Shown here piece after piece: positions 2,919 through 31,647 of a DNA stretch of 64,000 bases; position 1 is the first letter of the stretch; every line of letters begins with the position of its first letter. The notes beneath the pieces were generated by a model. That model was not told the origin of the DNA. It did no database searches and worked only from the letters and a program-made list of their open reading frames with translations. The stretch is taken from contig NZ_JABFTX010000001.1 of assembly GCF_021404305.1 (NCBI RefSeq), forward strand, positions 1,116,001 through 1,180,000, written 5' to 3'. The position numbers were made by a program, and so were the translations under genes. This stretch comes from Billgrantia ethanolica. GTDB lineage: Bacteria; Pseudomonadota; Gammaproteobacteria; Pseudomonadales; Halomonadaceae.

Positions 2919-4301
2919 CTAGTACGCGTTAGGGTTCAAGAAGCCTTTATAAATTGTCAGTGCAATGATTCTCAAGTCCAGCCAGATCGACCAGTTATCA
3001 ATGTACCAGAGGTCGTGCTCGACCCGACGCTCCATCTTCTCGACGGTATCGGTCTCGCCTCTCAAGCCGTTGACCTGAGCCCAGCCGGTAATGCCGGGCT
3101 TGACCTTATGCCGCTTCATGTACGACTCGACGATATCCTTGTAGTGCTCATTGTGAGCCAGCGCATGCGGGCGTGGCCCCACGATGGACATGCGCCCCTG
3201 CAGCACGTTGTAGAACTGCGGCAGCTCGTCCAATGAGGTGCGCCGCAGGAACGCCCCCAGCCGGGTAACCCGCGGGTCGCCCCGCCGGGCTTGAGTCACC
3301 TGCCCGCCCGGCTCCTCGTGAACCTCCATGGAGCGGAACTTGTATACCTTGAAGTGCTTGCCGTTGTCGCCCATACGGTATTGCTTGAACAGCACGGGCC
3401 CCGGCGAGGTGAGCTTGATAGCAATGGCGATAACCAGACACACCGGCAGCACCAGCAGGCTGAAAAAGCTGCCCAGTACCAGGTCTTCCAAGCGCTTCAC
3501 GATGCGGGTAACGCCGTTGAAGGGCGTGACACTGAGATCCACCGCCAAATGGCCGGCCACCTCGCTCATGCTGTGGTTCAACAGGTGCATGTCGCGGAAA
3601 TCCGGCAGAAAGCGTACTTCAGCCGTATGGTTGCGCAACGCATAGAAGATAGACCGCACCACGCCTCCCATGTCGAGCGGCACGCAGATCCACACCTCGC
3701 AGGCGTTCGACTCCACTACGCGGCGGCTCAGGCGCTCGATGGTTTCCTCATCCAGCCCTCCGGCAAGGCGCTCGACTCCGGCAATCGAGTACCCCTCGGC
3801 CGGATACTTACGCATGCCCTCGGCCACGCGGATGAGCTGCTCGCCCGGCCCAACCAGAAACACCGGCCGCCTGGCACGCCCCTGTCGCCGTGCCCGACGC
3901 AACAGCAGCTGCGCCAGCATACGTCCCCCGCCCGCCAGCAAGAAGGAGGATACGAGAGTGAACCCCACCCACAGGCGAGAGTAGCGCTCGGCGGCATGAG
4001 CGAAATAGATCAGCGACGTAGCAATGGCAGCCAGGATGAGCCAGGTCAGGGCAAGCCGGGCAATCATTGCCGGCAGCCGCTTGATGCGCCAGGAGCTGTA
4101 GCCACGCTGCATGGTGTTCAGCAACACCACCAGCAGCGACATGATGATCATGGCCAGCCAGAAGCGCTCGTGCAGCTGCAAGGTGCCGAAGCGCAGCCAA
4201 TAGGCAAACAGCCCACCGGCGAAAATGCAGAACACATCGAACACCGGCACGATGAGCTGCGCCGGGTAACGATCGGCAAAACTGATCGGGGCGACTTTCA
4301 T
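2919..4301 (-). CDS. Undecaprenyl-phosphate hexose-1-phosphate transferase (WcaJ/WbaP type)
   Basis: A 460-residue polyisoprenyl-phosphate sugar-1-phosphate transferase that starts repeat-unit assembly on undecaprenyl phosphate at the inner membrane. Order: about four N-terminal transmembrane helices (residues 15-125), a soluble Rossmann-like domain (about 140-255), a re-entrant membrane helix (about 270-300), and the catalytic domain with KLTSPGPVLFKQYRMG, KVYKFRSM, RTSLDELPQFYNVLQG and SIVGPRPHA, then KPGITGWAQVNGLRG. These are canonical for the bacterial sugar transferase family. The start ATG overlaps the stop of the O-antigen ligase/polymerase gene by 4 bp. It is the last gene before the terminator. 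The sugar (glucose, galactose or GalNAc-type) cannot be told from sequence. Confidence 0.92.
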   Translation of the reverse strand: MKVAPISFADRYPAQLIVPVFDVFCIFAGGLFAYWLRFGTLQLHERFWLAMIIMSLLVVLLNTMQRGYSSWRIKRLPAMIARLALTWLILAAIATSLIYFAHAAERYSRLWVGFTLVSSFLLAGGGRMLAQLLLRRARRQGRARRPVFLVGPGEQLIRVAEGMRKYPAEGYSIAGVERLAGGLDEETIERLSRRVVESNACEVWICVPLDMGGVVRSIFYALRNHTAEVRFLPDFRDMHLLNHSMSEVAGHLAVDLSVTPFNGVTRIVKRLEDLVLGSFFSLLVLPVCLVIAIAIKLTSPGPVLFKQYRMGDNGKHFKVYKFRSMEVHEEPGGQVTQARRGDPRVTRLGAFLRRTSLDELPQFYNVLQGRMSIVGPRPHALAHNEHYKDIVESYMKRHKVKPGITGWAQVNGLRGETDTVEKMERRVEHDLWYIDNWSIWLDLRIIALTIYKGFLNPNAY

Positions 4302-5539
4302 GCGCTATGCTCGCTATCCTTGCAGGCCAGCACGAAAAGCAGCGCCATGACGAAAGCGTAATAGGTCGCGATCATCTCGTGCTGCAGCGCCACCTCGGAA
4401 AGACAGAAAACGATGAACCCAAGGGAGAACACGAAGCCGGCGAACCAGTATGGGTTATCGGGCTCCCGATGGCTTCGCCGCAAGAAATACAAGGCCGGGA
4501 AAATCAGGTAGAAGAACAGCGCCACCACTCCGATGAGCCCACCCGTGGCCAACGTTTCGAAATACTGGCTATGGGCATGGCCACGGCTGATGGTGGCCAC
4601 CCACTCGTTGATGATCCCCGTACCCGCCAGCTCCAGGTTCAGGGCATCACGTTCGGAATAGGTCAGCCCTACCAGAGGTCGCTCCTTGAATGCCTCGATG
4701 GCAGCCGCCCATAAGCGTACGCGACCACCGGCGGAGTTATGGCGGAAATCCCCTTCCAGGATCCTTTCCACCTCACTCACGGTAAGATCAACCCGCTCCT
4801 CGACCTGCGGCAAAGTCAGGTAGCTTGCCAGCGCCAAGCCCGCCAACGCTAGCAGCCCGACGACCAGATACATCACCCCGATGCGCCGCCACTGCCACAC
4901 CAACAGCACGGTGAAAACGATGGGGATGGCAAACACCGCCCCGCGCGAGGTGCTCAGTAGCGTGGCCAGCAGCGCAAGCAACGCCCCAGCACCTACCAAA
5001 GCCCTTCGCTGAGTGCTGGGCAGCAGTGCCACCAACAGGAAGAACAGCGAGGCGCTGAGATAGCCGAAATTGATATGGAAAAGAAAACCATCCACCCGAG
5101 ACTGGCCGAGTAGATAAACCTCATAAACCGCAACGCCGGCGCCACCCAACGATCCGACGAAGCCACCATATTCCAGCGCAGCCCGGAAGCGCACCAGGCT
5201 AAGCTCTGCCAACGCGACCCGAAGCATCAAGTAAATGGGAATGATACCCATCATATGCAGGCCCGGCGCCAAATAACGCGTGCTGAAGCCACTCATGACG
5301 AAAACGGGAAGGTGGCTGAGCATGTACAGCGACAGCAGCAGCACAACCAGCCAATCCTGCCGGGTCATCGCCAGTTGGTGGCGATTGGAAATGAGAAAGC
5401 CTACGGAGTAAATCAGCAGCAGCGCAACGAAGGCGTGTATCCGGATAGGAGCCGAAACCAGCAGCGCGAATGCAAGGAAGGTGACCGCAAGGGTCAACTG
5501 AAGAGCTGTCTTGTGACTGAATAGCACCTGGCGCCTCAC
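4298..5539 (-). CDS. O-antigen ligase / polysaccharide polymerase (Wzy_C family)
   Basis: A 413-residue integral membrane protein with roughly ten to twelve hydrophobic helices and a periplasmic loop between about residues 260 and 330. The loop carries HNSAGGRVRLWAAAIEAF and later SRGHAHSQYFETLATGG, the pattern of the Wzy_C/O-antigen-ligase superfamily in which conserved Arg and His residues take part in transfer from undecaprenyl pyrophosphate. Proteins of this family are either WaaL ligases or Wzy polymerases and primary sequence rarely separates them. The neighbouring initiating transferase (4-bp overlap) is compatible with either. No Wzx flippase was recognised in the window. Confidence 0.8.
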   Translation of the reverse strand: MRRQVLFSHKTALQLTLAVTFLAFALLVSAPIRIHAFVALLLIYSVGFLISNRHQLAMTRQDWLVVLLLSLYMLSHLPVFVMSGFSTRYLAPGLHMMGIIPIYLMLRVALAELSLVRFRAALEYGGFVGSLGGAGVAVYEVYLLGQSRVDGFLFHINFGYLSASLFFLLVALLPSTQRRALVGAGALLALLATLLSTSRGAVFAIPIVFTVLLVWQWRRIGVMYLVVGLLALAGLALASYLTLPQVEERVDLTVSEVERILEGDFRHNSAGGRVRLWAAAIEAFKERPLVGLTYSERDALNLELAGTGIINEWVATISRGHAHSQYFETLATGGLIGVVALFFYLIFPALYFLRRSHREPDNPYWFAGFVFSLGFIVFCLSEVALQHEMIATYYAFVMALLFVLACKDSEHSA

Positions 5540-5581: not shown

Positions 5582-6103
5582 TCATAACGACTCGACCAAG
5601 GAATTCAACCGCTTTGCAAACGCTCTCCTCTCACGCTCGATGGCTTCTCGCAGCACCAAGGCAGGCGGTGCTTCCTTCGGCACACAAATGATCGCCTCCA
5701 CCAGCGGTTCTAGTTCAAAGAAAACGGGTACGCCGTAGCGCTCCGATATGGCCTCGGCGGTGTCGCGCTGGTGATCGTTGCGATGCTCCCGCAGGCTTGC
5801 CAGCCTGGGCAACATGAAAAAGGGCTTGGCCCGCTCCAGGCACAACAGCAGGTTGCCCATGCCCGCGTGGGTGACAACCAGCTCGGCCTGCTGAAACAGC
5901 GCCTCGAATTCTTCCTGTGGGAACATGGGCGCGACATTCAAATTGGCATGAGCGGTAGTGCAACCAGGTAGCGCGGAGTCCGATGCTCCAGGCCCCGCCT
6001 GAAACACCAAGCGCCACTCCGGGCAGCGCTCGGCCACTCGCTCCACGACTCGTGCCATCCGGGCGAACGGAAACTGGGTGCCTGCCGTAAATAGCACATT
6101 CAT
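5582..6103 (-). CDS. PssE/Alg13-like glycosyltransferase subunit (GT28 C-terminal half)
   Basis: A 173-residue protein that equals only the UDP-sugar-binding half of a GT-B enzyme. It begins MNVLFTAGTQFPFARM, like PssE/Alg13, and contains ELVVTHAGMGNLLLCLERAKPF, the GT28/MurG-type donor site. In the pair PssD/PssE the smaller protein supplies catalysis and PssD anchors and recruits it; together they transfer glucuronate in rhizobial exopolysaccharide synthesis. Here the ATG at 6103 overlaps the stop of the PssD-like gene, so the pair is co-translated. The open frame extends to 6193 but that part overlaps the upstream gene and is not PssE-like. ugd in the same locus would supply UDP-glucuronate. 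Confidence 0.8.
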   Translation of the reverse strand: MNVLFTAGTQFPFARMARVVERVAERCPEWRLVFQAGPGASDSALPGCTTAHANLNVAPMFPQEEFEALFQQAELVVTHAGMGNLLLCLERAKPFFMLPRLASLREHRNDHQRDTAEAISERYGVPVFFELEPLVEAIICVPKEAPPALVLREAIERERRAFAKRLNSLVESL

Positions 6104-6528
6104 AGCAAACGGCCCAGGTAGCGCACACGGCGGGTTTCCAGCTCCGGCCATTGGGTCAGCACCCGCGTAGCGAACAGGCAGGCTGCACGGCACGAAAGCG
6201 AGACATTGCGGCTATTGGCGATGCTATCCACCCAGATCGTCTTGCGGCCCAGCAGAAAGCCGGCGAACAGGATCAAAAGACCGGGCGCCGCCCCCGTACT
6301 CACGATCACATCCGGCCGGCTGCGGCGCACGATGCCAAGCGCACGGGGCAACTGAAGGATGCCCCGCCATATTTCACGAACGCTGAAATCATCGAGGTAA
6401 TAATCCGCCGAGGTATGCTGCGACTCGGCAGTGGAGACGAACTGACGCTCATCGCAGGCAAGCAGTTCGGATACCCGCTTCAGCTGTGCCCAGTGGCCGC
6501 CAAAGGAGGCGGCGAACAGAATCCTCAC
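6100..6528 (-). CDS. PssD/Alg14-like membrane subunit of a glycosyltransferase
   Basis: A 142-residue Alg14/PssD-family protein, partner of the PssE-like protein that follows. It opens VRILFAASFGGHWAQLKRV (the 'GGH-x-x-Q' motif of Alg14), has RPDVIVSTGAAPGLLILFAG, and IWVDSIANSRNVSLSCRAA, which matches the Alg14 'E/D-S-x-x-R' segment. GTG at 6528 is the preferred start because it overlaps the TGA of the upstream GT2 gene (GTGA), and the residues before it are not family-like. The Alg14 class holds its catalytic partner at the cytoplasmic face of the membrane. Likely glucuronosyl or related transfer, by analogy only. Confidence 0.8.
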   Translation of the reverse strand: MRILFAASFGGHWAQLKRVSELLACDERQFVSTAESQHTSADYYLDDFSVREIWRGILQLPRALGIVRRSRPDVIVSTGAAPGLLILFAGFLLGRKTIWVDSIANSRNVSLSCRAACLFATRVLTQWPELETRRVRYLGRLL

Positions 6529-7415
6529 CGCGGCAGCCCTCTCCGCTCGGCGCCGGGTACCATCAGGCGACACCGCTGTGCCACCTTCACCCCTTTGAGA
6601 TAAGCGAGTACCAGCAGCGCCCATGCGCGCTCGCGCCAGGTCATGTCTTGCCGGGTAAACAGCGTTGCCACGTCGCCCACCAAGTTGCCGAGCACACGCC
6701 GCAGGTTACCCAGCATGCCGCGGTCGCGGTACAGCGCCTGGCTGCCCGAGGTTACCCGCCGCGCCTTACCGGCCAGCGCCGAGAGAGAAGCACGCGCCGG
6801 ATGCCGAACCACGGCTTCGGCGCAGTAAAGCATGCGATGCCCCCGTGTGGTGGCACGCCGGGTCCATTCAAAATCACCACCGGACATCAGTTCAGCGTTG
6901 AACGGTCCGACTTCCTCGAACACCCTGCGGCGTACGAACAAATTGGCCGTTACCGCCACCCCATTGGCAACGTTCTGCCGCTGGCGAAACGCAAAGGCCT
7001 TCTCGAAGCACTCCGCCGGCGACAACCGCGGCGTGGCATAGGTCAGCTCGATGTTACCCGCCACCAAGTCCACATCGGGATGCGACTGCAAGCAATCAAT
7101 CCCGGCCTGCAGCCACCCAGGAGCAGGAACACAATCCGCATCGAGAAATACGAGCACCTCTCCTCGCGCCTCGGCAATGCCTCGGTTGCGGGCTGCGTAG
7201 GAGCCTGGCGCCGGCTCATGAAGTAGTCGAGTATTGCTGGGTAGCATCAAATCGTGCGGCTGGCTCTCGCCAGCATTCTCGATAATAAGGACTTCTAACT
7301 CATGCAGTGACAGGGTCTGGCCGGTCAGGGCAGCGAGGCAAGAGCACAGGGGATACCAATCTCGGTAAGTAGGCACGATAAGAGAAACAGCAGGCGTTGG
7401 CACATCGTCGCTCAT
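6525..7415 (-). CDS. Glycosyltransferase family 2 protein
   Basis: A 296-residue GT-A fold transferase. Visible motifs are VSLIVPTYRDWYPL at the N terminus, GSYAARNRGIAEARGEVLVFLDADCVP (DAD metal site, about residues 88-96) and MSGGDFEWTRRA (the G-G-x-D/E-x-E/D-W acceptor segment, about 178-190). The C-terminal 70 residues are basic and amphipathic, probably membrane-associated. It is coupled by 4-bp overlaps to the membrane protein upstream and to pssD-like downstream, so these genes are one translational unit. Donor and acceptor are unknown; a cytoplasmic role in repeat-unit assembly is likely. Confidence 0.88.
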   Translation of the reverse strand: MSDDVPTPAVSLIVPTYRDWYPLCSCLAALTGQTLSLHELEVLIIENAGESQPHDLMLPSNTRLLHEPAPGSYAARNRGIAEARGEVLVFLDADCVPAPGWLQAGIDCLQSHPDVDLVAGNIELTYATPRLSPAECFEKAFAFRQRQNVANGVAVTANLFVRRRVFEEVGPFNAELMSGGDFEWTRRATTRGHRMLYCAEAVVRHPARASLSALAGKARRVTSGSQALYRDRGMLGNLRRVLGNLVGDVATLFTRQDMTWRERAWALLVLAYLKGVKVAQRCRLMVPGAERRGLPR

Positions 7416-9214
7416 TCGTTGTCCTCACCTACACCTGCAGCTAAGAAAACCAAGCTATCTTTGCCAATATCAGATCCATTCTTAAGATGAGATAAGCACC
7501 TTAGCAGGTCAGGAAGTAATGCGATTGCATCAGCGTACCTTTGTCGTTGAAAAAATTTCTCAAAGACACCACAAAGCACGCAGAGATAAAAACGTTCTAA
7601 TGGCACTTCCGCCAGCACTTCTCTATCTTTTGCAGCTCTCAGGAGTGCTTTTCTTAAGCTTTTTCCAGCTCCTCTTGCTCTTGAAACCTCCGCCCCAACT
7701 GGCTCAATAGACCACTCTCCCCAATGAGCAGCACACAGAGCTCCAGCTTCAGAAAGCAACACAAGATCTTTGGGTGCTGAAACATTACATATCACCAATG
7801 GAAGAAGATTCAGCTCAGCTAAGACTTCATCAAAACAAAATCTGAGATTTTCGATATTACTTCTATCGACTTCTTTCACAGCAACAGTGTCCAATCGCTC
7901 CATCATCCATGAGCCCAATCTATGAGGCAAAAGAGGATGCGAGCGTAAATAACGGTTCAGCAAAGCTTTATCCGGTTCAACTTTCCAATATTCTGCCAGC
8001 CATTCATTTTTGACTCGTCTAACTAACCAGCTGCTTCTAACATAACCCTCAGACAAGCGGAGCAGATGCACATCGAAGCCTTCCATATCCCCAATATAAA
8101 CAAGCTCTGGAGCAGGCAGCAAATGACTGGAAACGGACGACAAGATATCCACCTCGCTCATCGCCGCTTTGCGATGTCGCTTGCCGAATATTTTTAGCAG
8201 GTACCGCTCAGCCTCTTCTTCCGCTGCCTTCACCTCGACATCAAAAGCCAACAGATCCGCCAAGCCGCTCTGCTTCCAACGACATTGCACTCGCACACCA
8301 TCGACCAGCGCATGACCTTTAACTTGAGCAAGGATACGCAGCAGCTGGTCACAATTTTCACACAAGCAGAGCAAGCTCCAGAACCTCCTGTTCCGCGTGT
8401 GCTCCGGCATCTTTTCCAGGCGATGCCCTGTAAAAAAGATGGCATTGATCTGGAGACGCTTGTCACTGAGCCAGATCGCATCCTTGAGCACACCGTCGAG
8501 CCGGTTCAAGAGTTGTCTTGATAATAACAAGCTGATGAGTGCCACCATGAAACTGACGCCTTCCCATAGCAGAAAATCCACCACCATGAAGGCGAACAGC
8601 ATCATGAAGCCAATACCAGAGATAAGCCCTATGAGGGATCCCGCCTTCTGTTGTAACTCGCCGCGCGCTTCGACGCGATGGCCCAGTAACGCCACGAAAG
8701 CTGAAGCGGCCAGCACATAACTGATAATGGCAAAGAGAAAGCCCGGGTAAACAAGGGCAAAGAGCAAAATAAGTACTGCCGCCAGTGTTCCGGTAGCTAA
8801 GCCAGCCGCCAGTTTCTGGTAAGCTTGGCTGGCGACTTCGTCCTGATTCGTGAACAGGACCAACTTGTGCGTGCCTGCCACCACACCCGCAGCCCCCCTC
8901 TCCGCCATGAAGCTCAAAAGTCTTTCCGATGAGAGTGAAGCGGCATAGAAAAATACGGTAGCAAGGCTAAGTGCAATGACCAGAGCATCTCGATCGAGCG
9001 CCGCCCATGAGTCAGGAAAATAGCGCGGCGTACCTGTCGAGCCGATCAAGATAATGACCTTCAGTGGCAAGAAAAAAGCCAGCATACGAGAAAACTGGCT
9101 CACCAGGGTCAGTACAACGAGGGTAAGCGTGGGCAGAGGTACAAGCTTGAAAAACTTCTTGAGCACCGCTGCCGACCAATACAGATGGCGTAGCGCAACG
9201 CGATAGAACCACAT
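7412..9214 (-). CDS. Polytopic membrane protein with C-terminal degenerate kinase-like domain
   Basis: A 600-residue protein I cannot assign to a named family. Residues 20-240 hold about six hydrophobic segments (24-56, 77-95, 135-160, 163-182, 198-222, 224-236), a layout recalling the membrane half of an exporter but with no ATPase domain. Residues 330-540 resemble an aminoglycoside-phosphotransferase/kinase fold: LLPAPELVYIGDMEGFDVHLLRL, then LPLVICNVSAPKDLVLLSEAGAL and HWGEWSIEPVGAEV. In an active kinase those spots read H-G-D-x-x-x-x-N and D-W/F; here the Asp is Asn and the metal Asp is His, so it looks like a pseudokinase. The start follows AGGTG; the stop overlaps the GT2 start. Confidence 0.5.
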   Translation of the reverse strand: MWFYRVALRHLYWSAAVLKKFFKLVPLPTLTLVVLTLVSQFSRMLAFFLPLKVIILIGSTGTPRYFPDSWAALDRDALVIALSLATVFFYAASLSSERLLSFMAERGAAGVVAGTHKLVLFTNQDEVASQAYQKLAAGLATGTLAAVLILLFALVYPGFLFAIISYVLAASAFVALLGHRVEARGELQQKAGSLIGLISGIGFMMLFAFMVVDFLLWEGVSFMVALISLLLSRQLLNRLDGVLKDAIWLSDKRLQINAIFFTGHRLEKMPEHTRNRRFWSLLCLCENCDQLLRILAQVKGHALVDGVRVQCRWKQSGLADLLAFDVEVKAAEEEAERYLLKIFGKRHRKAAMSEVDILSSVSSHLLPAPELVYIGDMEGFDVHLLRLSEGYVRSSWLVRRVKNEWLAEYWKVEPDKALLNRYLRSHPLLPHRLGSWMMERLDTVAVKEVDRSNIENLRFCFDEVLAELNLLPLVICNVSAPKDLVLLSEAGALCAAHWGEWSIEPVGAEVSRARGAGKSLRKALLRAAKDREVLAEVPLERFYLCVLCGVFEKFFQRQRYADAIALLPDLLRCLSHLKNGSDIGKDSLVFLAAGVGEDNE

Positions 9215-9249: not shown

Positions 9250-11490
9250 TCAACTCAGCTGCCAAAAGGGCCGAATGCCATCATGAGGGAAAAACAATGG
9301 CTTAACCTCTTCCTTGCTGGGAATTCCCAAATGCTCAAGCCCACTCACCTTCCCATAACGAGAAAGATAGGCGTAATAAATTGGGTAGTAACGCTCAGAA
9401 TCGAAGTTGTCTATCTGTTGAAAAGGCCAATCCTTTCCCATATACGAAAGCAACCACTCCATGGCCCTACGTATGCTCTGCCCCTCCGGCCCCTCGAAGC
9501 TCCACAGGTCTTCGCCGCATGACTCCGCCAATTGCGCCAAGTGGATCCACCCCTGCAGGTTAAAGCAACAATAGTGAGCAGTGGTGGTACGCTTCAGCTC
9601 CTCGGGCTGGCTACCGTCGGCAGCAAACTGATGCACAATACGGAAACGGCAGTCTCTCAGCGTATGCCGCAGTAACGTGTCCTCTCCGAGAAACGCAGCA
9701 ATGGTACCAACCTGTAAGTCGTAGTAGGTGCCATGATTGTTCTGCGCTGCGCGCTCCTTCACACCCTGCGGGCTGGTACGCAGCCAGTGCAGGTATTTGG
9801 ATAGCCACTCCCTGAATGCATCCGCCTCGCTTTCCGTCAGCCTATTGCACTGCTCCAGCAACCTAACGGCATCGAGAAAATAGTAGAAATCCTTCGCCTC
9901 GATAATGCCTGAACTGCTCCCCCGGTTACCGTTCCATCCCTTTCTCACCTGGGCATATTCAAGATGGGGGGCCATGGCTGTCTCGGGATCTAGGAACCAA
10001 GTACGAACAAGCTTGGAGGCATGATCATGATATCGTTCGTCTTGGCTCACGCTACCCGCTAGTGCCAGAACGAAAGTATCGTCAAACAAGCGCTGTAATC
10101 GTGTGCGGTCATAGTTATCGCTCATCGGCTCATATAGCCGAGTACCGGGGACGCGCTTGCCATCTCTGCGTATATAAGGCAGCCCTGGGATGGGGAGCGG
10201 AATGGGCCAGAAGTAAGGAGCAGGATGCCAGTAGTCGTGAAGATTGTTGCTCGGTGGAAGCGTTTTTTTATCTACGACTGAATAGGGCCCGCGAGACAGC
10301 GCTTCATCCGCTGCACTTACCAGGCTTTGCCTTAGCGTTTCGCTTGCACCGCCATGCGATGCCACATCGGCCACATAGCACAGACGATTCGAGTCGTACC
10401 GAGAATGGAATCCTACCCCATCGAGCCTGTCGAGCAGATTCGCAATGGCTTCGTTACGCGCCAAGCCACGGTCGACAAGCCCACTTTTTCCTTTTTCCAG
10501 GTGGCCTTGGCCCGAGAAAAGCCGAGCCACCCAGCCTGCCGTAGCGAATGCACCGGCATCCTCAGAATAGCCAGGACATGGGATGTCCCATGGTTCGACA
10601 TGCCAGTGGTCCCATTTGCCGGGTATCCCGAGCCGCCAGAAAAGTTCCACCTTGGGGCGGCGGCCATAGTAGCATGCTTCATCGAACACCTCGGTGCTAT
10701 CGCACCTAAAGATCATTTGCGGTTCTTCATCGGCGTGGGGACGATAACCTTTTTCCAGCAAGCTCTCATTGCTGGATATCCGTGCCATCGGGACGACAAA
10801 ATAGCGACACTCTGGCTGTTCTTCAATACCCGTTACAATTTCCTTCCAGGCCTCATCAGTAAGGAAGCAGTTACCATCCCAGGGTAATACCCATTTGGCT
10901 TGAGCCTTGCCTGCACTAAGCGCCGCGTTCCGTGCTCCGTTATTATTCATCACATAGTTGTTCTTATGCCGGTATAGCCGCATCCATATTCGACTCTGTT
11001 GGGCAGCAGTCAACTGAGTGAACAGTTTTCCAGTTGGCAAATATTCTCTTGGCACTCCCTCGACATCCAATGACAGAGTCTGGTATGCATCAAGGTGAAA
11101 CGGTATATGTATATATTCGACATTGGCAGCTTCCAGCATTCCAATTATCTGCTTTTCTTCATCTGGATCGACAATACGATTGACAATAAAGTGCTTTACG
11201 CAACCTTCTAACTTCGGCTCATTCTTGAGGATAAATTCCAAATTTTTCCGTGACTGCCCTTTCTCATGCCGAGGAACGAGATCGTTACCAATGATGCGAT
11301 AAAGAACAAATTTGCTTTCAAAATTATTTAGGGAAAATTGTCTTTCTTGAACCTCACCATGAGATATGGCTTTTTTCCTCTTTACCTGCCTTTCTGCCGG
11401 AGTAGTGACCTTAATGTTATGAAGGAGTCTAAATTGAAAATCTCGCTTAAATTTTTTCAAATAATTCAACACTGCCGACACCTGCCCCAA
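9250..11490 (-). CDS. Fusion of a GT-A-like glycosyltransferase domain and an alginate-lyase-type domain
   Basis: A protein of up to 746 residues with two halves. Residues about 55-360 look like a GT-A transferase: FVLYRIIGNDLVPRHE, then NNNGARNAALSAGKAQAKWVLPWDGNCFLT, matching the RN-x-A...DG-D/N core of GT2-like enzymes. Residues about 380-740 resemble the alginate_lyase (PL5-like) alpha/alpha-barrel, with DYWHPAPYFWPIP, EAKDFYYFLDAVRLL and the signature AQNNHGTYYDLQ, where Asn-His and Tyr are the catalytic positions in this family. No signal peptide is visible, so the lyase half would be cytoplasmic unless exported otherwise. Start codon is uncertain: TTG at 11490 or GTG at 11472, the latter better spaced from CAGGTG. 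Confidence 0.7.
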   Translation of the reverse strand: MGQVSAVLNYLKKFKRDFQFRLLHNIKVTTPAERQVKRKKAISHGEVQERQFSLNNFESKFVLYRIIGNDLVPRHEKGQSRKNLEFILKNEPKLEGCVKHFIVNRIVDPDEEKQIIGMLEAANVEYIHIPFHLDAYQTLSLDVEGVPREYLPTGKLFTQLTAAQQSRIWMRLYRHKNNYVMNNNGARNAALSAGKAQAKWVLPWDGNCFLTDEAWKEIVTGIEEQPECRYFVVPMARISSNESLLEKGYRPHADEEPQMIFRCDSTEVFDEACYYGRRPKVELFWRLGIPGKWDHWHVEPWDIPCPGYSEDAGAFATAGWVARLFSGQGHLEKGKSGLVDRGLARNEAIANLLDRLDGVGFHSRYDSNRLCYVADVASHGGASETLRQSLVSAADEALSRGPYSVVDKKTLPPSNNLHDYWHPAPYFWPIPLPIPGLPYIRRDGKRVPGTRLYEPMSDNYDRTRLQRLFDDTFVLALAGSVSQDERYHDHASKLVRTWFLDPETAMAPHLEYAQVRKGWNGNRGSSSGIIEAKDFYYFLDAVRLLEQCNRLTESEADAFREWLSKYLHWLRTSPQGVKERAAQNNHGTYYDLQVGTIAAFLGEDTLLRHTLRDCRFRIVHQFAADGSQPEELKRTTTAHYCCFNLQGWIHLAQLAESCGEDLWSFEGPEGQSIRRAMEWLLSYMGKDWPFQQIDNFDSERYYPIYYAYLSRYGKVSGLEHLGIPSKEEVKPLFFPHDGIRPFWQLS

Positions 11491-11500
11491 GTCAATAAAC

Positions 11501-12781
11501 TTATGATTCCATTAGCATCATCGAGACTTCATTTCTCAACCTGCCAAGATCTTTTTTCCAATGATCGTAAATACTCGGGTCATAAGTCTCAAATCTCTCA
11601 AGCCAATCATCATTGTAAAAATCGTTCTTCCAGAAGCCAGCCTTCAATTCAGAGATTGCGACTCTTGGCGCCACCGAGTTTTTCACAAAACCGTAGTAGT
11701 CTTCTCGGATATTGTCGAGTTCGAATAGTTGATAGACCTTCACTCCAGCATGAAGAAGGTCAATTACCACGGACGAATTTGGGACCAAAGCGATATGTTC
11801 ATACTCAGGCACTACATCATGCACAAGAAAATCACTATTTAGAAAAACAAAGTCACTCTCTTGCGAGCGAGGATGTTTTTTTATCGCGACACTTTCCACA
11901 TCAGGATTGGACTGGCATAAGTTGACAACCTCCTCCACTTTTTCCTTGTGAAAAGTGGAGCTCAGATAAATTACTACTTCTACCTTATCCGGCGGCGCAT
12001 CCATTATTTCTTCAAAAGAAGCGGCTTTCTCCTCTCTTGGAATGATGAACGCCGCTCCCTCGATTTCGCCTATCTCAGAATAAGTGTTTAATGATTTCTC
12101 ATTGCGTAATATGGAAATCTCGTAATCCAAACTAGGAAAATCCTTGGTCACTTCGGCATGCTGCACATATATCCTGGGGACGCCTTGCAGTTTCATTACC
12201 ATCGAGAGCGCTACGGATATATCAGTATGATCATTGGCAAAGATGGACACCTTCGGCTTCGCATCCGCTCTACTGAAGTATACTAGCAACCGGTAATACG
12301 CATTCACAAATCGAATGAGAAACCTAAGCGAGGTAGGGTTAACTTTTATGCGCCCGAGGTAAACGAGGCAGCAACAAAACAGGACGAATCTCACAAAAAC
12401 ATGATAGAGATCGTTCTTCCCTTTCCTTGTTGGGTAGAACGACACGTTTCTTTCTTTAGTGTATGCAAATAGATCAGCAACCTCAGTGCCAGCCATCAGC
12501 TTTTGCAAAAAAAAGAACTCTCTTTCATTATTTTTTGTGCTGCCACAGTACAAAGCCTCTGGAACAGGCCCAACATAACGCTTATGACGTGATAGAAAAA
12601 ACTCTCTGAACAAGTAAGTCGCCGCCACCAACCGAGGCAGGCGCGAGGTGTTGAGCCGCTTGTATTTTTCTTCCGCCTCGATTCGCACATGATACACTGG
12701 CACATCGCCGAACCGTATGATCTTGAAATTTCTTTCAAGGCCGAGAAAAAATAAACGTACTGAACAGTACAATTTATGCAT
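11501..12781 (-). CDS. Putative GT-B-like glycan biosynthesis protein
   Basis: A 426-residue protein of a family I cannot name with certainty. The second half shows features shared by capsule-synthesis GT-B or CDP-glycerol-transferase-like proteins: VPRIYVQHAEVTKDFP (the Q-H/G segment after an A/G-V-P strand), VAIKKHPR (K-x-H-P) and ALVPNSSVVIDLLHAGVKVYQL (the S-S-x-x-x-D/E-x-x-x-x-G donor-phosphate region). Hydrophobic segments near residues 125-150 suggest membrane association. ATG at 12781 is chosen, overlapping the upstream gene by 8 bp; an in-frame TTG lies at 12799. A+T-rich composition sets it apart from the flanking core genome. Confidence 0.45.
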   Translation of the reverse strand: MHKLYCSVRLFFLGLERNFKIIRFGDVPVYHVRIEAEEKYKRLNTSRLPRLVAATYLFREFFLSRHKRYVGPVPEALYCGSTKNNEREFFFLQKLMAGTEVADLFAYTKERNVSFYPTRKGKNDLYHVFVRFVLFCCCLVYLGRIKVNPTSLRFLIRFVNAYYRLLVYFSRADAKPKVSIFANDHTDISVALSMVMKLQGVPRIYVQHAEVTKDFPSLDYEISILRNEKSLNTYSEIGEIEGAAFIIPREEKAASFEEIMDAPPDKVEVVIYLSSTFHKEKVEEVVNLCQSNPDVESVAIKKHPRSQESDFVFLNSDFLVHDVVPEYEHIALVPNSSVVIDLLHAGVKVYQLFELDNIREDYYGFVKNSVAPRVAISELKAGFWKNDFYNDDWLERFETYDPSIYDHWKKDLGRLRNEVSMMLMES

Positions 12782-14318
12782 CAACGTGATTCGCCACAAT
12801 ATTAATTAATGTTTGCCCTACGTCCAAGGCAACACCGCCATTTTTTGCGACTTCTGCAGCGAAAATTTTTCCTATGAACCCAGCAGAAATAAAGAACACG
12901 ACGCCAGGACCCGCCAGCTCTCTAATTTGTTCAAGATAGTTTTCATAAACATAAGGCAGAGGCTGCATGGCTTCCGTATAACTAAATTTCTCGGTCTTCA
13001 GCAGGCGATGTGTTGGCAATTCTATATATGTAGCATGAGGAATGTCATCAAAGACCGGTTGCAGATACTCTCTCTTTGCACCCGAAATAAATATGACACG
13101 CTGAGCGAGCCTAGCGAGTTTAGCAATGTACTCCCTGTCAAACAGGTATAGGTTTATCTGGCCCTCTGTGATATAGGCACGGGCGTCATATGCTTTCAGA
13201 TACCCATGACAGATCGTAAAAAGCCTACAAAGTAGAGCATTGTTAAAAATGCTATAATCGCGATTGATGCTAAGCTCATTGATAAACCTGAATACACTAG
13301 GAATTCCGACCAAGGCATGCTCAAACAAGCTCCGTCTGAAATCTTCTTGAATTTTATTCCTTAATGCAGGAGGCAGCACTTCTCCCCACCAATGAAGCTC
13401 CTGTCGTTCCATATCGAAGGCACACGGTAAAGTATTGGGGAAACCATACCCTTCACCGTCATTAAGCCTAACGAAAGAAAAGCGGTCTCCATTCAGCACT
13501 GCTTTTTCAACTTGCTCTTTTATCTTCGCCAGCTTATTTTTTTTAATTTGGTAATCAAGCATATTTTTCTCTTCGGGAATAATCTCGAAGAGCGATAGCA
13601 AGTACTTTTTATATTCTCTGGAAAGAGTCTTATCCAGCAAGCAAAATTGCTTTACAATGGTTTGAAAGTTTACAACACTTTCGTCCTTTAACCTTCCCTC
13701 CCAATACAGCAACTTCACCGAAGCGGCAGGCGTTATTTGCTGGAAATATCTTTTTTTTAAATCATCAAATACTTCCCTCTCTCCTTCAACTGCAGCTTTG
13801 TGCAGAACCCTAAGCACCTGTTGGAAAGTGATTGAATCGATCAACTCCGCTTTATAAAAGGCGTCATAGGCTTCCTTGGCAGTCAACTTTTTAGTGATGA
13901 GAGCTATTAAAAGTCGCCTGAATTCACTTTCATTTTTTAATTTTTTCTTTTTATCTCGATAATATTTTATAAATTCTTCCAACTCTAAGAGCAAGATAGG
14001 TGACGGCGAAGAAAGTGACTCTCGGATTTTAACCAAGAATCTAATCTCCTCACTGCGAATATTAAACTTATTCTTTGTGATAGTATCATATGACGGACTT
14101 CGCTTATCATTCAGATAAGAAAGAGCTTCCCATATGATATTTTCTGGAATAAATTTTCTCTTCTGAAAAATACAAAAAGCCTTTACTGAATTAGGGCTTT
14201 TTTCAATTCGCTCGGCGATGGACACAGCTATTTTTAAATTTAATGATTTCTCAATTTTCCTAATAAAACGATATATTATTCTTGCTCTACTCTTTATAAA
14301 TCCAATCATATCTGGCAA
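12774..14318 (-). CDS. GT-D fold glycosyltransferase-like protein with long helical N terminus
   Basis: A 514-residue protein. The first 250 residues are charged, Lys/Glu-rich and probably helical, with no family I recognise. The C-terminal 250 residues carry the marks of the GT-D type glycosyltransferase domain (DUF1792-like): DRFSFVRLNDGEGYGFPN (the R-x-x-D-G-E metal site), VGIPSVFRF, AYITEGQINLYLFD, VIFISGAKREYL and GVVFFISAGFIGKIFAAEV followed by ALDVGQ. A TTG start at 14318 is supported by GGAG seven bases upstream; an in-frame ATG lies at 14309 without such a site. It is A+T-rich and sits in the acquired part of the glycan locus. Likely transfers a sugar to a surface glycan or glycoprotein. 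Confidence 0.65.
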   Translation of the reverse strand: MPDMIGFIKSRARIIYRFIRKIEKSLNLKIAVSIAERIEKSPNSVKAFCIFQKRKFIPENIIWEALSYLNDKRSPSYDTITKNKFNIRSEEIRFLVKIRESLSSPSPILLLELEEFIKYYRDKKKKLKNESEFRRLLIALITKKLTAKEAYDAFYKAELIDSITFQQVLRVLHKAAVEGEREVFDDLKKRYFQQITPAASVKLLYWEGRLKDESVVNFQTIVKQFCLLDKTLSREYKKYLLSLFEIIPEEKNMLDYQIKKNKLAKIKEQVEKAVLNGDRFSFVRLNDGEGYGFPNTLPCAFDMERQELHWWGEVLPPALRNKIQEDFRRSLFEHALVGIPSVFRFINELSINRDYSIFNNALLCRLFTICHGYLKAYDARAYITEGQINLYLFDREYIAKLARLAQRVIFISGAKREYLQPVFDDIPHATYIELPTHRLLKTEKFSYTEAMQPLPYVYENYLEQIRELAGPGVVFFISAGFIGKIFAAEVAKNGGVALDVGQTLINIVANHVDA

Positions 14319-16860: not shown

Positions 16861-17808
16861 TTAACAATAATATTTTTTAATCAATTCAGGAGAGCATCCG
16901 GATTTAATGAGAGATGGAGCTAAAAAGTGATCAAACATAAGCGTACTGTCCTCTTTTAAGCAGAGCCTTAAACTTTCTCGATTGAACGAATTAAAAAAAC
17001 TTGCTTTCCCATACTTGTCACTTGAAAATTCTTTAAAGAGTATTCTGTTAATTTCCTTCTTTCGTACACCGCTTACTTTTGGAAGAATCTCTCTAGACAA
17101 CCTTACACCATATTCGGAAAAGCTAGCGTTAGCTTGTTTAATCACATTAAATCCATTGAGACTGCAGCGCTTCTTAGTTAATATATACAGGAACTTTTCT
17201 ATAAACACTTCTGTCCCCAGCTCTAATATTAGTTCAAAGGGAAGAGCTGTGAATTTACCAGGTAGTTTATTGTGGCAAGAACTTGCCACATCATGCCATG
17301 ATAGATTTTTAATATCTATTGCTTCAACAAATTCATCGAAAGAAAGTGATCGCTGCTCTTTTATTTGCTGAAGATAGCAGGACTCTATAAAAGCATCTTG
17401 CTTTCTCACAACCATGATGGCATTGACAAGTTCATCGCCAAATATTTCCTTTATAGATTCCGCCACCACTAAGTGATGAGTATAAATTCCCTTGTATATA
17501 TCTAGTGAGGAATGGCCTAGAATACCTTCCCAAGAGATAATGACATCGTTTTTTCCGCAGTTATTCAACACCCTCTTTAAGTCTTCTTTTGCATCTTTGA
17601 TAGATTTTGCAAAATCATGCTGGTTTAGTATTTCCTTATTAGCAATTGACCTAAAATGAGTCGCTACTGCAGTTCCTTTTAGCTCCTGCCCTCCTATAAA
17701 CGAAAAGCCATAACGCGTCTCAACCAATTCATTGTTTGCTCTTAAAGTTCTTTGGATTGTAGTCGATGCCGACTTATGGGCACCAATGTGTAAAAATATT
17801 CTTTTCAT
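16861..17808 (-). CDS. Sulfotransferase-like protein (first of two paralogues)
   Basis: A 315-residue protein that opens MKRIFLHIGAHKSASTTIQ, matching the 5'-phosphosulfate-binding loop of PAPS-dependent sulfotransferases (H-K-x-x-S/T-T). Further matching segments are NDVIISWEGILGHS, where the 3'-phosphate-binding Ser is expected, and MVVRKQDAFIESCYLQQIKE, the usual R-x-Q-D...S-x-x-x-Q stretch of the bacterial polysaccharide-type family. It shares the order of motifs and a C-terminal D-K-Y-G-K-A-S-F-F block with the next gene, so the two are divergent paralogues. Predicted to move sulfate from PAPS to a glycan in the cytoplasm. PAPS synthesis genes lie 7-10 kb upstream in the same locus. Confidence 0.7.
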   Translation of the reverse strand: MKRIFLHIGAHKSASTTIQRTLRANNELVETRYGFSFIGGQELKGTAVATHFRSIANKEILNQHDFAKSIKDAKEDLKRVLNNCGKNDVIISWEGILGHSSLDIYKGIYTHHLVVAESIKEIFGDELVNAIMVVRKQDAFIESCYLQQIKEQRSLSFDEFVEAIDIKNLSWHDVASSCHNKLPGKFTALPFELILELGTEVFIEKFLYILTKKRCSLNGFNVIKQANASFSEYGVRLSREILPKVSGVRKKEINRILFKEFSSDKYGKASFFNSFNRESLRLCLKEDSTLMFDHFLAPSLIKSGCSPELIKKYYC

Positions 17809-18074: not shown

Positions 18075-18974
18075 TTAAGACGTATAGAATTCTTTATAAA
18101 TTTCGCAATCCATGTTATAGCGAGAAAATAATAGCTTATTGCTCTCTGATGAAGCTGAAATAATTTCTTTTCTTTCTTGATCGCTGAAGATAGTGAGCTT
18201 TCCATACTTGCTTGCTGGAAACTTTTGTTGCAAAAAGCGAATCAATTCTTTTCGACTCTTTACATCAGGTATGTACTTAAAGGCTTCTAAAGAAAACTCA
18301 TATGCTATTCCTGACATGCTCGGATTTTGAAACCCGGGCTCATATGATATAATCTTAAAGTCTTCGGCTATTATGCGAAAGAATTTTGTTATGAAACTCT
18401 CAGCGCTCTTCTTTATTTCTTCAAAAACCATCACGGAAAGCTTCGATCTTCCAACAATTTTTTCCAACCCGACCAAAACCTCAAGCCAGTTAATGCTACT
18501 TAAGCAAGGGGTGCTAGCTATGAATTTATCATATGGAACCAATCTACCACTTTGAACATTCTGCAATGCCATGCTTTCAATGAAGTTATCTTGTCTTTTT
18601 ATTACAAAAATTACGTGCAGATCATAACCCATTTCCGATGCTGCATCAGAGATGTTTTTTAATATAACATCTGAAAAAGGATAAATATTTTTTTCTTTCC
18701 CAATAGCTCCGGAAAATCCTTCATAAGAGACTAAAATATTACCAAACTCCTTTTTTGAAACAACCTCTTTTTCAAGAAAGTTAATAAAATCTCCCTTCAG
18801 GAGAGAAAATCCGTCTGCGATATATTTTTTTATATCCCAGTGCGGAAGCAGCCTTATGTTGTGGACGTAAAAAATTCCGTGACTCCTCATTATTTCTTTG
18901 TTGTTTTTTGCAAACTGCTGAAGCAGCGTACTGCCTGTTTTATGAGGCCCAACATGGAGATATATTTTTTTCAC
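18075..18974 (-). CDS. Sulfotransferase-like protein (second paralogue)
   Basis: A 299-residue relative of the previous gene. It begins with the PAPS-loop sequence IYLHVGPHKTGSTLLQQF, the commonest form of this motif in bacterial sulfotransferase-like proteins, followed by NILVSYEGFSGAIG and VIFVIKRQDNFIESMALQ. The C terminus ASKYGKLTIFSDQERKEI parallels SDKYGKASFFNSFNRESL of the neighbour. The start is a GTG at 18974 preceded by GGAAAGG. A 266-bp A+T-rich gap without a recognisable gene separates the two paralogues. Expected to sulfate a sugar hydroxyl or amino group using PAPS; acceptor unknown, and a non-sulfotransferase P-loop role is not excluded. Confidence 0.7.
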   Translation of the reverse strand: MKKIYLHVGPHKTGSTLLQQFAKNNKEIMRSHGIFYVHNIRLLPHWDIKKYIADGFSLLKGDFINFLEKEVVSKKEFGNILVSYEGFSGAIGKEKNIYPFSDVILKNISDAASEMGYDLHVIFVIKRQDNFIESMALQNVQSGRLVPYDKFIASTPCLSSINWLEVLVGLEKIVGRSKLSVMVFEEIKKSAESFITKFFRIIAEDFKIISYEPGFQNPSMSGIAYEFSLEAFKYIPDVKSRKELIRFLQQKFPASKYGKLTIFSDQERKEIISASSESNKLLFSRYNMDCEIYKEFYTS

Positions 18975-24769: not shown

Positions 24770-26683
24770 CTAGAGTTGCTTGAGAAGCAGTCCAATGATT
24801 TCCTGCTGGCTCAGCTCTGCGGTATTGACCGTCAGTTCTGCTGATTTGGGCACTTCATAGGGGCTGCTGATACCCGTGAAGTCCTTGATTTTGCCTTCAC
24901 GCGCTTTCTGGTAAAGCCCCTTTGGGTCGCGCTGTTCGCAGATATCCAGAGGAGTGTCGACGTACACCTCGATGAAATCGCCGTTCTGGAACAGGGCCCG
25001 AGCGGCGTCGCGGTCGCTACGGAACGGTGAGATGAAGGCGGTAATGACGATGATACCGGCCTCGGCGAACAGCCTTGCCAATTCACCTACGCGACGGATG
25101 TTCTCGGTGCGGTCTTCCTCGCTCATGCCGAGGTCTTTGCACAGGCCGTGGCGTACGTTGTCGCCATCCAGCAGCATGGTATGATAGCCGCGGCGGTTCA
25201 GTTCCACTTCCAGAGCATTGGCCAGGGTCGATTTACCTGAACCTGACAGGCCAGTAAACCAAACGCACTTGCCTTGATGACCATTGAGCTGCTCCCGCAT
25301 GGCCTGGGTAACGCTGGTGCGGTTCCACACGACGTTGGCCTTGCTATCGTGCTCGCGGAACTCGTAGGGCAGTTCGCTATCCAGTGGCTGATGGATCATC
25401 CCCGCCCCAACCGTTACGTTGCTGAGGCGATCGATGAGGATGAAGCAGCCAGTACCGGGGCTGGTGCGGTAATCGTCGATGGGCACCGGCGCCGTCAGTT
25501 CGATATGGCAACGCGCGATGGCGTTGAGATCGAGATTCTCGGCGTGGCGGTGCTCGAGCGTGTTGACGTCGACCTGGTAGTCGATGGCCGTGACCTTGCC
25601 AGCCACGGCCCGGGTGGCAAGCTTTAGGTCGTACAGCTTGCCGGGCTCCAACGGGGCCTCGTGCATCCACACGATATCTGCTTCGAAGCCATTGGCAAGC
25701 GGCACTTTGGCTTCTTCGGCCACGATCCAGTCGCCACGGGAGATATCGATTTCGTCTTCCAGGGTGAGGGTGATCGCTTGCCCCGGGTAGGCAGTCTCTA
25801 GATCGCCATCGAAGGTCACGATTCGTGCCACCTTGGAAACCTTACCGGAAGGCAGAGCCCTTATGATCTGACCACGATGAACGATACCAGCTGCCAGGGT
25901 ACCGGCGTAGCCACGGAAGTCGAGGTTGGGGCGGTTGACGTACTGCACCGGGAAACGCAGGTCGCGCAGGTTTTTATCGTGGCTGATCTCTACGCTTTCC
26001 AGCAGCTCCAGCAGGGTCGTCTTATCGTACCAACCCATTGTCTCGCTCTTGTTGACGACGTTGTCACCCTTGAGGGCGGACATTGGCACGAAGCGAATGT
26101 CGCGCGCGTGGAGCTTCTCGGCAACGGCCTGATACTCCTCGACGATCTCGTCAAAGCGTGCCTGGGAATATTCGACCAGATCCATCTTGTTCACGGCTAC
26201 GATCAGGTGCTGGATGCCCAGCAGATCGGCGATGAAGCTGTGGCGCCGGGTCTGGGTCTGCACGCCGTAACGGGCGTCGATCAGGATGATCGCCAGGTTG
26301 GCGGTGGAGGCACCTGTGGCCATGTTGCGGGTGTACTGCTCGTGCCCCGGGGTGTCGGCGATGATGAACTTGCGCTTGTCGGTGGAGAAGAAGCGGTAGG
26401 CCACGTCGATGGTGATGCCCTGCTCGCGCTCCGACTGCAGACCGTCGACCAGCAGCGCCAGGTCCACGGCGTCGCCGGTGGTGCCGCTCTTCTTGGAGTC
26501 GCGGGTCAGCGCCGCCAGGTGATCGTCGAAGATCATCTTGGAATCGTGCAGCAGCCGGCCGATCAGGGTCGACTTGCCATCATCCACGCTGCCGCAGGTG
26601 ATGAAGCGCAGCAGGTCCTTGTTCTCGTGCTCGTGCAGGTACTGCTCGATATTATCGGCGATCAGTGTCGATTGATGTGCCAT
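24770..26683 (-). CDS. cysNC: Bifunctional sulfate adenylyltransferase subunit 1 / adenylyl-sulfate kinase
   Basis: A 637-residue fusion. Residues 1-430 are the GTPase subunit of ATP sulfurylase: [16 protein letters not shown] (P loop, about 30-45), [12 protein letters not shown] and NKMD. Residues about 455-637 are APS kinase: [15 protein letters not shown] (about 478-492), [17 protein letters not shown], and [13 protein letters not shown]. With CysD it makes APS, then phosphorylates it to PAPS, the donor for sulfotransferases. The start overlaps the cysD stop (TGATG). The kinase fusion, two sulfotransferase-like genes downstream and no cysH/cysIJ in view point to PAPS supply for sulfation. 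Confidence 0.96.
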
Positions 26684-30312: not shown

Positions 30313-31647
30313 TCATTGCAGCGAGTCCCCTCGCCCCACTCCAAAGTAAAGCAAACCTGCTTGCTTTACTCGTGCGGGGTCGAAGAGATTCCGCCCATCC
30401 ACTACCACAGGCGTGGCCAGCTGCTGTTTCAGCCAGTCGAGATCCACGGCGCGGAAGTCTTTCCACTCCGTGCAGATGGCCAGGGCATCGGCGCCTTTCA
30501 CTGCCTGGATGCGGTCGGCCACCAGTATCAGGTCGTCACGGTCGCCATAGATGCGCCGGCACTCACGCATGGCTTGCGGGTCGTAGGCCTGCACTTTGGC
30601 ACCGGCTTCCCACAGGGCTTCCATGAGCATACGGCTGGGGGCGTCGCGCATGTCGTCGGTGTCGGGTTTGAAGGCCAGCCCCCACAGGGCAATGGTCTTC
30701 CCTTGCAGGTCGCCATCGAAGGCCTGCATCAGCTTGTTGAACAGGGTCTGTTTCTGGCGCCGGTTCACCGCTTCTACCGCGTTGAGCAGTTCGGGGTGGT
30801 ATTCTACCTGTGTGGCTGTTCTAGCGAGGGCTTGTACGTCCTTGGGGAAGCAGGAGCCGCCGTAGCCGCAGCCGGGATAAATGAAGTGGTAGCCAATCCG
30901 CGGGTCTGAGCCGATACCGTGACGCACCTGTTCCACGTCGGCGCCCAGCCTCTCGGCCAAGTTGGCTATTTCGTTCATGAAGCTGATCTTTGTCGCCAGC
31001 ATGGCGTTGGCGGCGTATTTGGTCAGCTCGGCGGCGCGAATGTCCATGAACATCAGTTTGTCGCGCAGTCGGTTGTAGGGGGCGTAGCATTCGCGCATCA
31101 GCGCCTTGACCCGCTCCGAGCCGGTACCCACTACAATGCGCGCACCATGGGAGAAATCTTCTATGGCGGCGCCTTCTTTCAGAAACTCGGGGTTGGAGCA
31201 AACGTCGAACTCGGTTTGCTGGCCACGGGCTTCCAGGGCGCTATTGATCGCAGAACGCACCTTGTCCGCCGTACCCACCGGCACGGTGGATTTGTTGATG
31301 ACCACCTTGTAGTCGCTCATGTGCTCGCCAATGGTCTTGGCCACGGCGAGTACGTATTGCAGGTCGGCGCTGCCATCTTCATCCGGCGGCGTACCAACGG
31401 CAATGAACTGAAGTTTACCGAACCCTACTGCCTTGGCCGCATCAGTGGTGAAATGCAGCCGGCCGGCGGCCACGTTCTGCTTCACCATGGCTTCCAGCCC
31501 CGGCTCGTAGATGGGGATCTCCCCGCGTTCCAGCCCTGCTATCTTGTCGGCATCGATGTCCATGCACATCACGTCGTGGCCGACATCGGCAAGGCAAGCG
31601 CCGGTCACCAGGCCTACATAGCCGGTTCCAAATACGGTAACGTTCAT
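30313..31647 (-). CDS. ugd: UDP-glucose 6-dehydrogenase
   Basis: A 444-residue NAD-dependent enzyme oxidising UDP-glucose to UDP-glucuronate in the cytoplasm. It begins [24 protein letters not shown] (Rossmann loop), has [30 protein letters not shown], the hinge helix [20 protein letters not shown], and [18 protein letters not shown] with the catalytic Cys, then [29 protein letters not shown] precedes the ATG. It is the most upstream gene of the leftward locus and would supply glucuronate for the exported polymer, consistent with the PssD/PssE pair and the alginate-lyase-like domain. Confidence 0.96.

Follow-up and report, generated by a model that had tools for sequence, protein, structure and literature searches.

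Why should a single protein, encoded among surface-polysaccharide genes, join a glycosyltransferase-like domain to a domain of the alginate-lyase type? A polysaccharide lyase is commonly taken for a degrading enzyme, and the automatic name 'alginate lyase' would misdirect readers of such loci. The window analysed here (the whole stretch of Billgrantia ethanolica DNA, 64,000 nucleotides) contains one of them, and its first-pass annotation had proposed a GT-A-like domain and a PL5-like lyase domain on one chain. The gene and its parts, all on the minus strand, are placed as follows.

9250..11490, minus strand: GT-A/PL38-type fusion gene, 746 aa (open reading frame and relatives)
10366..11316, minus strand: GT-A domain and following linker, residues 59-375, conserved core 59-346 (model, Foldseek, VIA, alignment)
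10870..10878, minus strand: D205-G206-N207, candidate DxD-type site (conservation; strand end in the model)
9253..10389, minus strand: PL38-type lyase domain, residues 368-746 (Pfam, PDB sequence search, fold)
9733..9738, minus strand: N585-H586, aligned with BoPL38 N242-H243 (alignment, conservation)
9571..9591, minus strand: R634 to Y640 (RTTTAHY), aligned with BoPL38 R292 to Y298 (alignment, conservation)

In the list of open reading frames, 746 codons run without interruption from 11490 to 9250. The start codon is uncertain, being either TTG at 11490 or an in-frame GTG at most 18 bases further. The gene at 11501-12799 precedes it across a short gap, within a long run of minus-strand genes. 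An AlphaFold model of the full-length protein (33 sequences) reached a mean pLDDT of 87.7 and a pTM of 0.86, with mostly low confidence in residues 1-58, a basic helix included.

Relatives show that the two domains belong together. We scanned named genomes with either of two seven-residue patterns, one per half (loci holding neither are missed), and recovered 32 loci. Split forms exist among them: L031 encodes a lyase alone, L032 the GT half alone and L033 a lyase behind GT2 and GT4 domains. These give what substance there is to the idea that the fusion is a sequencing or assembly artefact, yet both domains occupy one open frame in 29 of the 32 independent loci, including L034 with its damaged or misread lyase half, and we reject an artefact as next to negligible. 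The same count, together with the structure models, bears out the original proposal of one two-domain protein. According to record titles, the named hosts comprise Halomonas, Billgrantia, Salinicola, Microbulbifer, Thioalkalivibrio, several Alphaproteobacteria, Bacillus and Mesobacillus, and the metagenome-assembled hosts, whose placement can be wrong, Desulfobacterales, Trueperaceae and Atribacteria; the fusion thus spans Pseudomonadota, Bacillota and, as metagenome-assembled genomes, three further phyla. It is nevertheless rare and patchy, since the fusion protein occurs in 4 of 97 relative genomes and the GT half in 2 of 369 genomes of the class, the host's own genome counted each time. Across the phylum, a profile of the lyase half matched 23 of 398 genomes at 25 places; the six best lie in frames of 750-1692 aa, every one with the GT half, and the other 19 in frames of 330-523 aa. 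Of 72,556 plasmid records 17 matched, with no match extending beyond 80% of the query; among the matches listed, the places begin no earlier than query residue 366 and cover the lyase half only.

A tree of 55 lyase domains (midpoint root) groups the 36 fused rows with L031 and L033 (support 100/100), and the 17 other rows fall apart from this clade. The tree and the site counts below leave out eleven loci (L001-L004, L037-L040, L043-L045) taken as duplicates from their source or from identical frame length and score, together with rows that scored less than 150 bits against the PL profile (L061 and the degenerate second copy in L014). Because L031 and L033 are nested in the fused clade, they look like later losses and the fusion like no artefact; the plainest reading of the tree would be one fusion followed by two losses of the GT half. 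With L031-L034 set aside, the two halves are equally conserved (mean identity 0.557 and 0.554 over 406 pairs from 29 sequences) and co-vary (r 0.865; none of 2000 permutations as high).

The AlphaFold model, Foldseek and VIA agree that the N-terminal half adopts a GT-A fold. Modelled alone it attains a mean pLDDT of 91.0, and all 50 VIA matches listed for it are glycosyltransferases or complexes containing one, with K4CP the best (Z 13.1, rmsd 2.7 over 179 residues), and CHSY3-CHPF (Z 12.7), PmHS2 (11.8) and LARGE1 (11.6) further on. Foldseek ranks AvpGT, TarS, SpsA and K4CP first (best E 2.6e-05), and a few nucleotidyltransferases, such as IspD and GMPP, appear in its lower rows. The WDGN motif singled out in the first-pass annotation is present at residues 204-207, where it closes the modelled strand E200-205, presumably the position at which GT-A enzymes carry their DxD. 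D205-G206-N207 is identical in all 31 aligned rows holding the domain, and R187, N188, R237, E256, Q258, R277, R278, K280, W301 and D302 are equally invariant.

By sequence this half belongs to no family in the libraries searched; neither Pfam nor NCBIfam gives a match that passes its cut-off. Below the threshold, Pfam comes closest with GT49 (11.8 bits against a cut-off of 27, E 0.15) and GT2 (11.8 bits against 23.3, E 0.23; half scanned alone in both cases), and both were rejected as assignments. An hhalign comparison with ten GT2 proteins of the relative loci returned a probability of 0.1%, and its sole short stretch, at that probability, puts DGN on the DAD of those proteins. A profile of the domain found no match among PDB sequences at E up to 10. 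We conclude that residues 59-346 form, in the model, a GT-A fold unrecognised by Pfam, with predicted transferase activity.

For the C-terminal half the lyase fold proposed at the outset stands and the PL5 label does not. Pfam Alginate_lyase (PF05426) matches residues 404-685 with E 5.4e-76, and the nearest solved relatives are 3nfv/3nnb and BoPL38: a phmmer search of the PDB returned 3nfv at E 6.2e-62 and BoPL38 (8bdq) at E 1.3e-50 over residues 393-707. VIA places residues 368-746 on 3nnb with Z 42.2, and model residues 366-746 superpose on 8bdq_B with Z 37.7 and an rmsd of 3.0 over 362 residues. The PL5 enzyme A1-III follows at Z 23.4-24.4, and human dermatan sulfate epimerase 1 (DS-epi1, 6hzn) at Z 19.4, with an rmsd of 3.6 over 299 residues. 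Membership of PL5 was rejected: phmmer found no PL5 chain in the PDB at E up to 1, the NCBIfam PL5-type model scored 18.4 bits against 366, and A1-III is matched by fold only. As judged from alignment and model, the half is a complete domain of PL38 type; it stands closer to PL38 than to PL5, a label that fits it only broadly.

Its active site appears complete. BoPL38 Y91, D108, Q173 and N242 align with Y426, D443, Q514 and N585, and H243, R292, H297 and Y298 with H586, R634, H639 and Y640, so that all eight mapped site residues are present; we take R292 to be a site residue from its place in the PL5 site. The NNHG signature noted earlier is confirmed at residues 584-587, aligned with BoPL38 241-244. 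Of 36 fused copies, 35 retain all eight residues; L034 is the exception. This intact site makes it very unlikely that the lyase fold merely binds the acceptor for the transferase, as had been suggested, although site loss does occur in fusion loci, given that PL38-like proteins without a GT half in four of them lack two site residues. With L034 also left out, 24 positions are fixed in both the fused clade and all 13 other PL38-like rows, including seven of the eight site residues (Y426, D443, Q514, N585, H586, R634 and Y640); on account of these shared positions the active site itself marks no change from lyase to epimerase. A further 21 positions are fixed in the fused clade and rare in the 13 other rows, from which we infer that the substrate may differ from that of other PL38-like proteins.

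The proteins without a GT half form a second PL38-like group in the fusion loci (L012:1-2406, L014:4837-6942, L015:2662-4743 and a 562-aa frame in L019). BoPL38 Y298 is kept in this group, and in all four members H243 is replaced by I or V and H297 by D; by its residues, the group would be a one-base relative of the two-base fused clade. L014 also has two fusion copies, one intact and the other degenerate in its lyase half.

The protein has no visible signal peptide, as originally remarked, the best 12-residue hydropathy in its first 60 residues being 0.68. Scoring as a leader any 12-residue hydropathy window of at least 1.8, a measure distinct from a signal-peptide predictor, we found one in 1 of 31 clade proteins and in 12 of 13 other PL38-like proteins; in the clade the scan covered 60 residues counted from the first start codon (the contig-cut L009 left out, L032 and L034 counted), and in the other rows a different stretch, up to 75 residues in front of the domain. 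The exceptions are L008 in the clade (1.87) and L048 among the others (1.45). From these counts, the fusion, the co-varying halves and the transferase-type domains added in some relatives, we conclude that this is a putatively cytoplasmic, biosynthetic PL38 clade of surface-polysaccharide loci. An ordinary catabolic lyase, beside synthesis genes by chance, would agree with Pfam and the record annotation, which both say alginate lyase; the absence of a leader, the fused GT-A domain, the synthesis-gene neighbours and the separation of the clade from other PL38-like rows leave it hardly credible.

Other genes placed in the window are these.

2919..4301, minus strand: WcaJ-type undecaprenyl-phosphate sugar phosphotransferase (TIGR03023, 495.8 bits, cut-off 410.75)
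4298..5539, minus strand: Wzy_C/O-antigen ligase family protein (PF04932, 72.7 bits, cut-off 31.7)
5582-6193, minus strand: PssE/WelK-like, candidate glucuronosyltransferase subunit (below cut-off: PssE 58.6 of 120 bits, WelK 57.9 of 400)
6100-6624, minus strand: PssD/Alg14-like, partner of the PssE/WelK-like gene (by eye)
6525..7415, minus strand: GT2 glycosyltransferase (PF00535, E 4.5e-16)
7412..9214, minus strand: partner gene of the fusion, encoding 600 aa without annotation, hydrophobic in the N-terminal part
30313..31647, minus strand: nucleotide-sugar dehydrogenase, most likely of UDP-glucose type (TIGR03026, 460.9 bits, cut-off 189.8)

A homologue of the 7412-9214 protein occurs in 14 of 35 relative loci, duplicates among them, and often adjoins the fusion. 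It has no Pfam or NCBIfam match, its PDB hits are at chance level, and its role as a partner may be flippase-like or kinase-like. For the dehydrogenase at 30313-31647, the best named NCBIfam equivalog is TuaD, under its cut-off; pseudaminate-type sugar genes and sulfate activation genes also lie further along the window. Two related-looking minus-strand genes, 16861-17808 and 18075-18974, have P-loop-like N-termini by eye and no Pfam, NCBIfam, PHROGs or PDB match (PHROGs matched none of four proteins); we suspect that they encode sulfotransferases, near the sulfate activation genes at 24770-27600. The minus-strand gene at 12774-14318 gives a weak GT-D-like fold match (E 0.004; its L005 homologue 6.9e-05, both below cut-off) and is possibly a further unusual transferase of the locus. 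The segment 12000-20000 has a G+C content well below that of the rest of the first 34 kb, as if acquired (0.36-0.42 at 12-20 kb versus 0.57-0.60 in the first 8 kb and 0.55-0.64 on the right).

The relatives sit in similar company. A simple script that takes the longest open reading frame was used to call the genes near them, and for 109 such frames the first 25 of 87 families include GT2 (15), GT group 1 (7), Glyco_tran_28_C (7), ABC_tran (4), Sulfotransfer_3 (3), ABC2_membrane (3) and UDP-glucose dehydrogenase families (2). Elsewhere in the host genome, two places match Wza-type proteins (C40:232746 and C10:999785) and one a Wzx-type protein (C10:991294). Those on C10 lie about 116-125 kb from the window, and the locus may feed LPS, a capsule or an exopolysaccharide. 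By alignment and modelling, then, the GT-A/PL38-type fusion is a conserved, leaderless protein of surface-polysaccharide loci with a predicted intact lyase-type site.

What would such a protein do? In our best explanation, which we hold to be plausible while short of probable, the GT-A half would add a sugar to a lipid-linked oligosaccharide containing a uronate (probably GlcA), probably on its O4, and the PL38 half would bind the same, newly 4-O-substituted uronate and take its C5 proton. The proton would most likely be returned from the other face, for a net C5-epimerisation (e.g. GlcA to L-IdoA) with no cleavage. Y640 and H586 would serve as two bases on opposite faces, as C5-epimerisation needs; their BoPL38 equivalents, Y298 and H243, remove H5 during syn and anti eliminations (PMC13169297). 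The fused and leaderless form, the site kept in 35 of 36 copies, the equally conserved, co-varying halves, the PL38 fold with DS-epi1 in the same VIA list and the 21 clade-fixed positions all argue for epimerisation, as do an operon with a WcaJ-type start and a PssE/WelK-like gene, repeated copies per locus and sulfotransferase partners. On the other side, the site is that of a lyase, with seven of its eight residues common to all 13 other PL38-like rows; the PssE/WelK matches are under cut-off; DGN would be a non-standard DxD; in L032 the GT half stands by itself; and the model has no counterpart of the DS-epi1 beta-sheet domain.

We favour epimerisation over a cytoplasmic editing or terminating lyase, and the data of this analysis fit both. 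In the latter, which we consider a possible but doubtful reading, the PL38 half would cleave misbuilt, overlong or stalled intermediates that contain uronate and come from the GT half, and recycle the lipid carrier. Periplasmic AlgL is a precedent for a lyase in a synthesis locus, and the host's own genome carries a second PF05426 protein, at C18:816503, that is AlgL-like with a hydrophobic N-terminus. The full lyase site is kept, and the known PL38 members are lyases according to PMC11381880. Against this, such an enzyme would cut the very bond presumed to be made by the transferase it is fused to, and the architecture of the relatives fits clearing less well. Two fusions occur in each of four loci (L010, L012, L015 and L027), and the GT-A/PL38 module shares a chain with a rhamnosyltransferase-like domain in L015 and L028, with methyltransferases in L010 and L027, and with GT2 in L016 and L020. 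In Hyphomonas johnsonii a 2775-aa chain (L025:3824-12148) strings together sulfotransferase, GT2, GT4, GT-A and PL38 domains. These extra linked domains and paired fusions fit unit-by-unit building better than a single clearing enzyme. A third outcome, in which the elimination product is kept and its 4,5-unsaturated uronate end caps the chain or is further modified, would also be served by an intact lyase site in synthesis loci; we know of no precedent for it, no gene seen at the locus would use such an end, and we think it improbable.

Taken one step beyond C5-epimerisation at the lipid-linked stage, the fusions may be two-headed synthases, in which the GT-A domain adds a sugar to a lipid-linked uronate and the PL38 fold inverts this uronate at C5, in the cytoplasm and unit by unit, to yield polymers that contain iduronate or guluronate and are sulfated in some strains. 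This is a tentative proposal; if true, it would be a bacterial, lyase-fold parallel to the animal route of epimerase and sulfotransferase. The recurrence of the fusion in distant bacteria suggests that here the lyase fold builds or reshapes a chain and does not degrade it. We found no description of a transferase-lyase fusion in the open-licence literature; the component domains are familiar, and what appears to be new is their union in a biosynthetic clade. With a conserved fusion in hand, the use of a lyase fold in synthesis and the epimerisation of uronates before polymerisation become directly testable, and the fusion could supply both an enzyme for iduronate-type glycans and a GT-A family absent from the Pfam version used.

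The known systems each share a part of this design. BoPL38 (8bdq) and 3nfv/3nnb resemble the lyase half in sequence and fold, and BoPL38 also in eight of eight site residues, whereas 3nfv has G at the position of BoPL38 H297 in the alignment; these B. ovatus alginate lyases are single-domain and come from a polysaccharide-degrading gut bacterium, and the window protein adds a GT-A domain and lacks a leader. The chondroitin polymerase K4CP, CHSY3-CHPF, the heparosan synthase PmHS2 and LARGE1 have the GT-A fold in common with the GT half (Z 11.6-13.1), at 7-14% identity over the aligned part, and several make uronate-containing chains according to their PDB titles, but they have no lyase domain and carry DxD where the window protein has DGN. 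AlgL-type PL5 lyases share the wider fold of the lyase half (Z about 20-24 for AlgL and A1-III); they are periplasmic with a leader (PDB title) and unfused, and give no sequence match to the window protein at E up to 1. DS-epi1 acts on a glycosaminoglycan chain in the Golgi and, to our knowledge, is not fused to a glycosyltransferase. It works in the synthesis of a sulfated uronate polymer and shares the helical toroid of the lyase half at 11% identity, but its toroid is joined to an antiparallel beta-sheet domain, whereas the window model ends at residue 746 without one. According to PMC11848413, Y261 is the proposed base of DS-epi1, and the lyases of this superfamily and the mammalian glycosaminoglycan epimerases have a common fold and catalytic apparatus.
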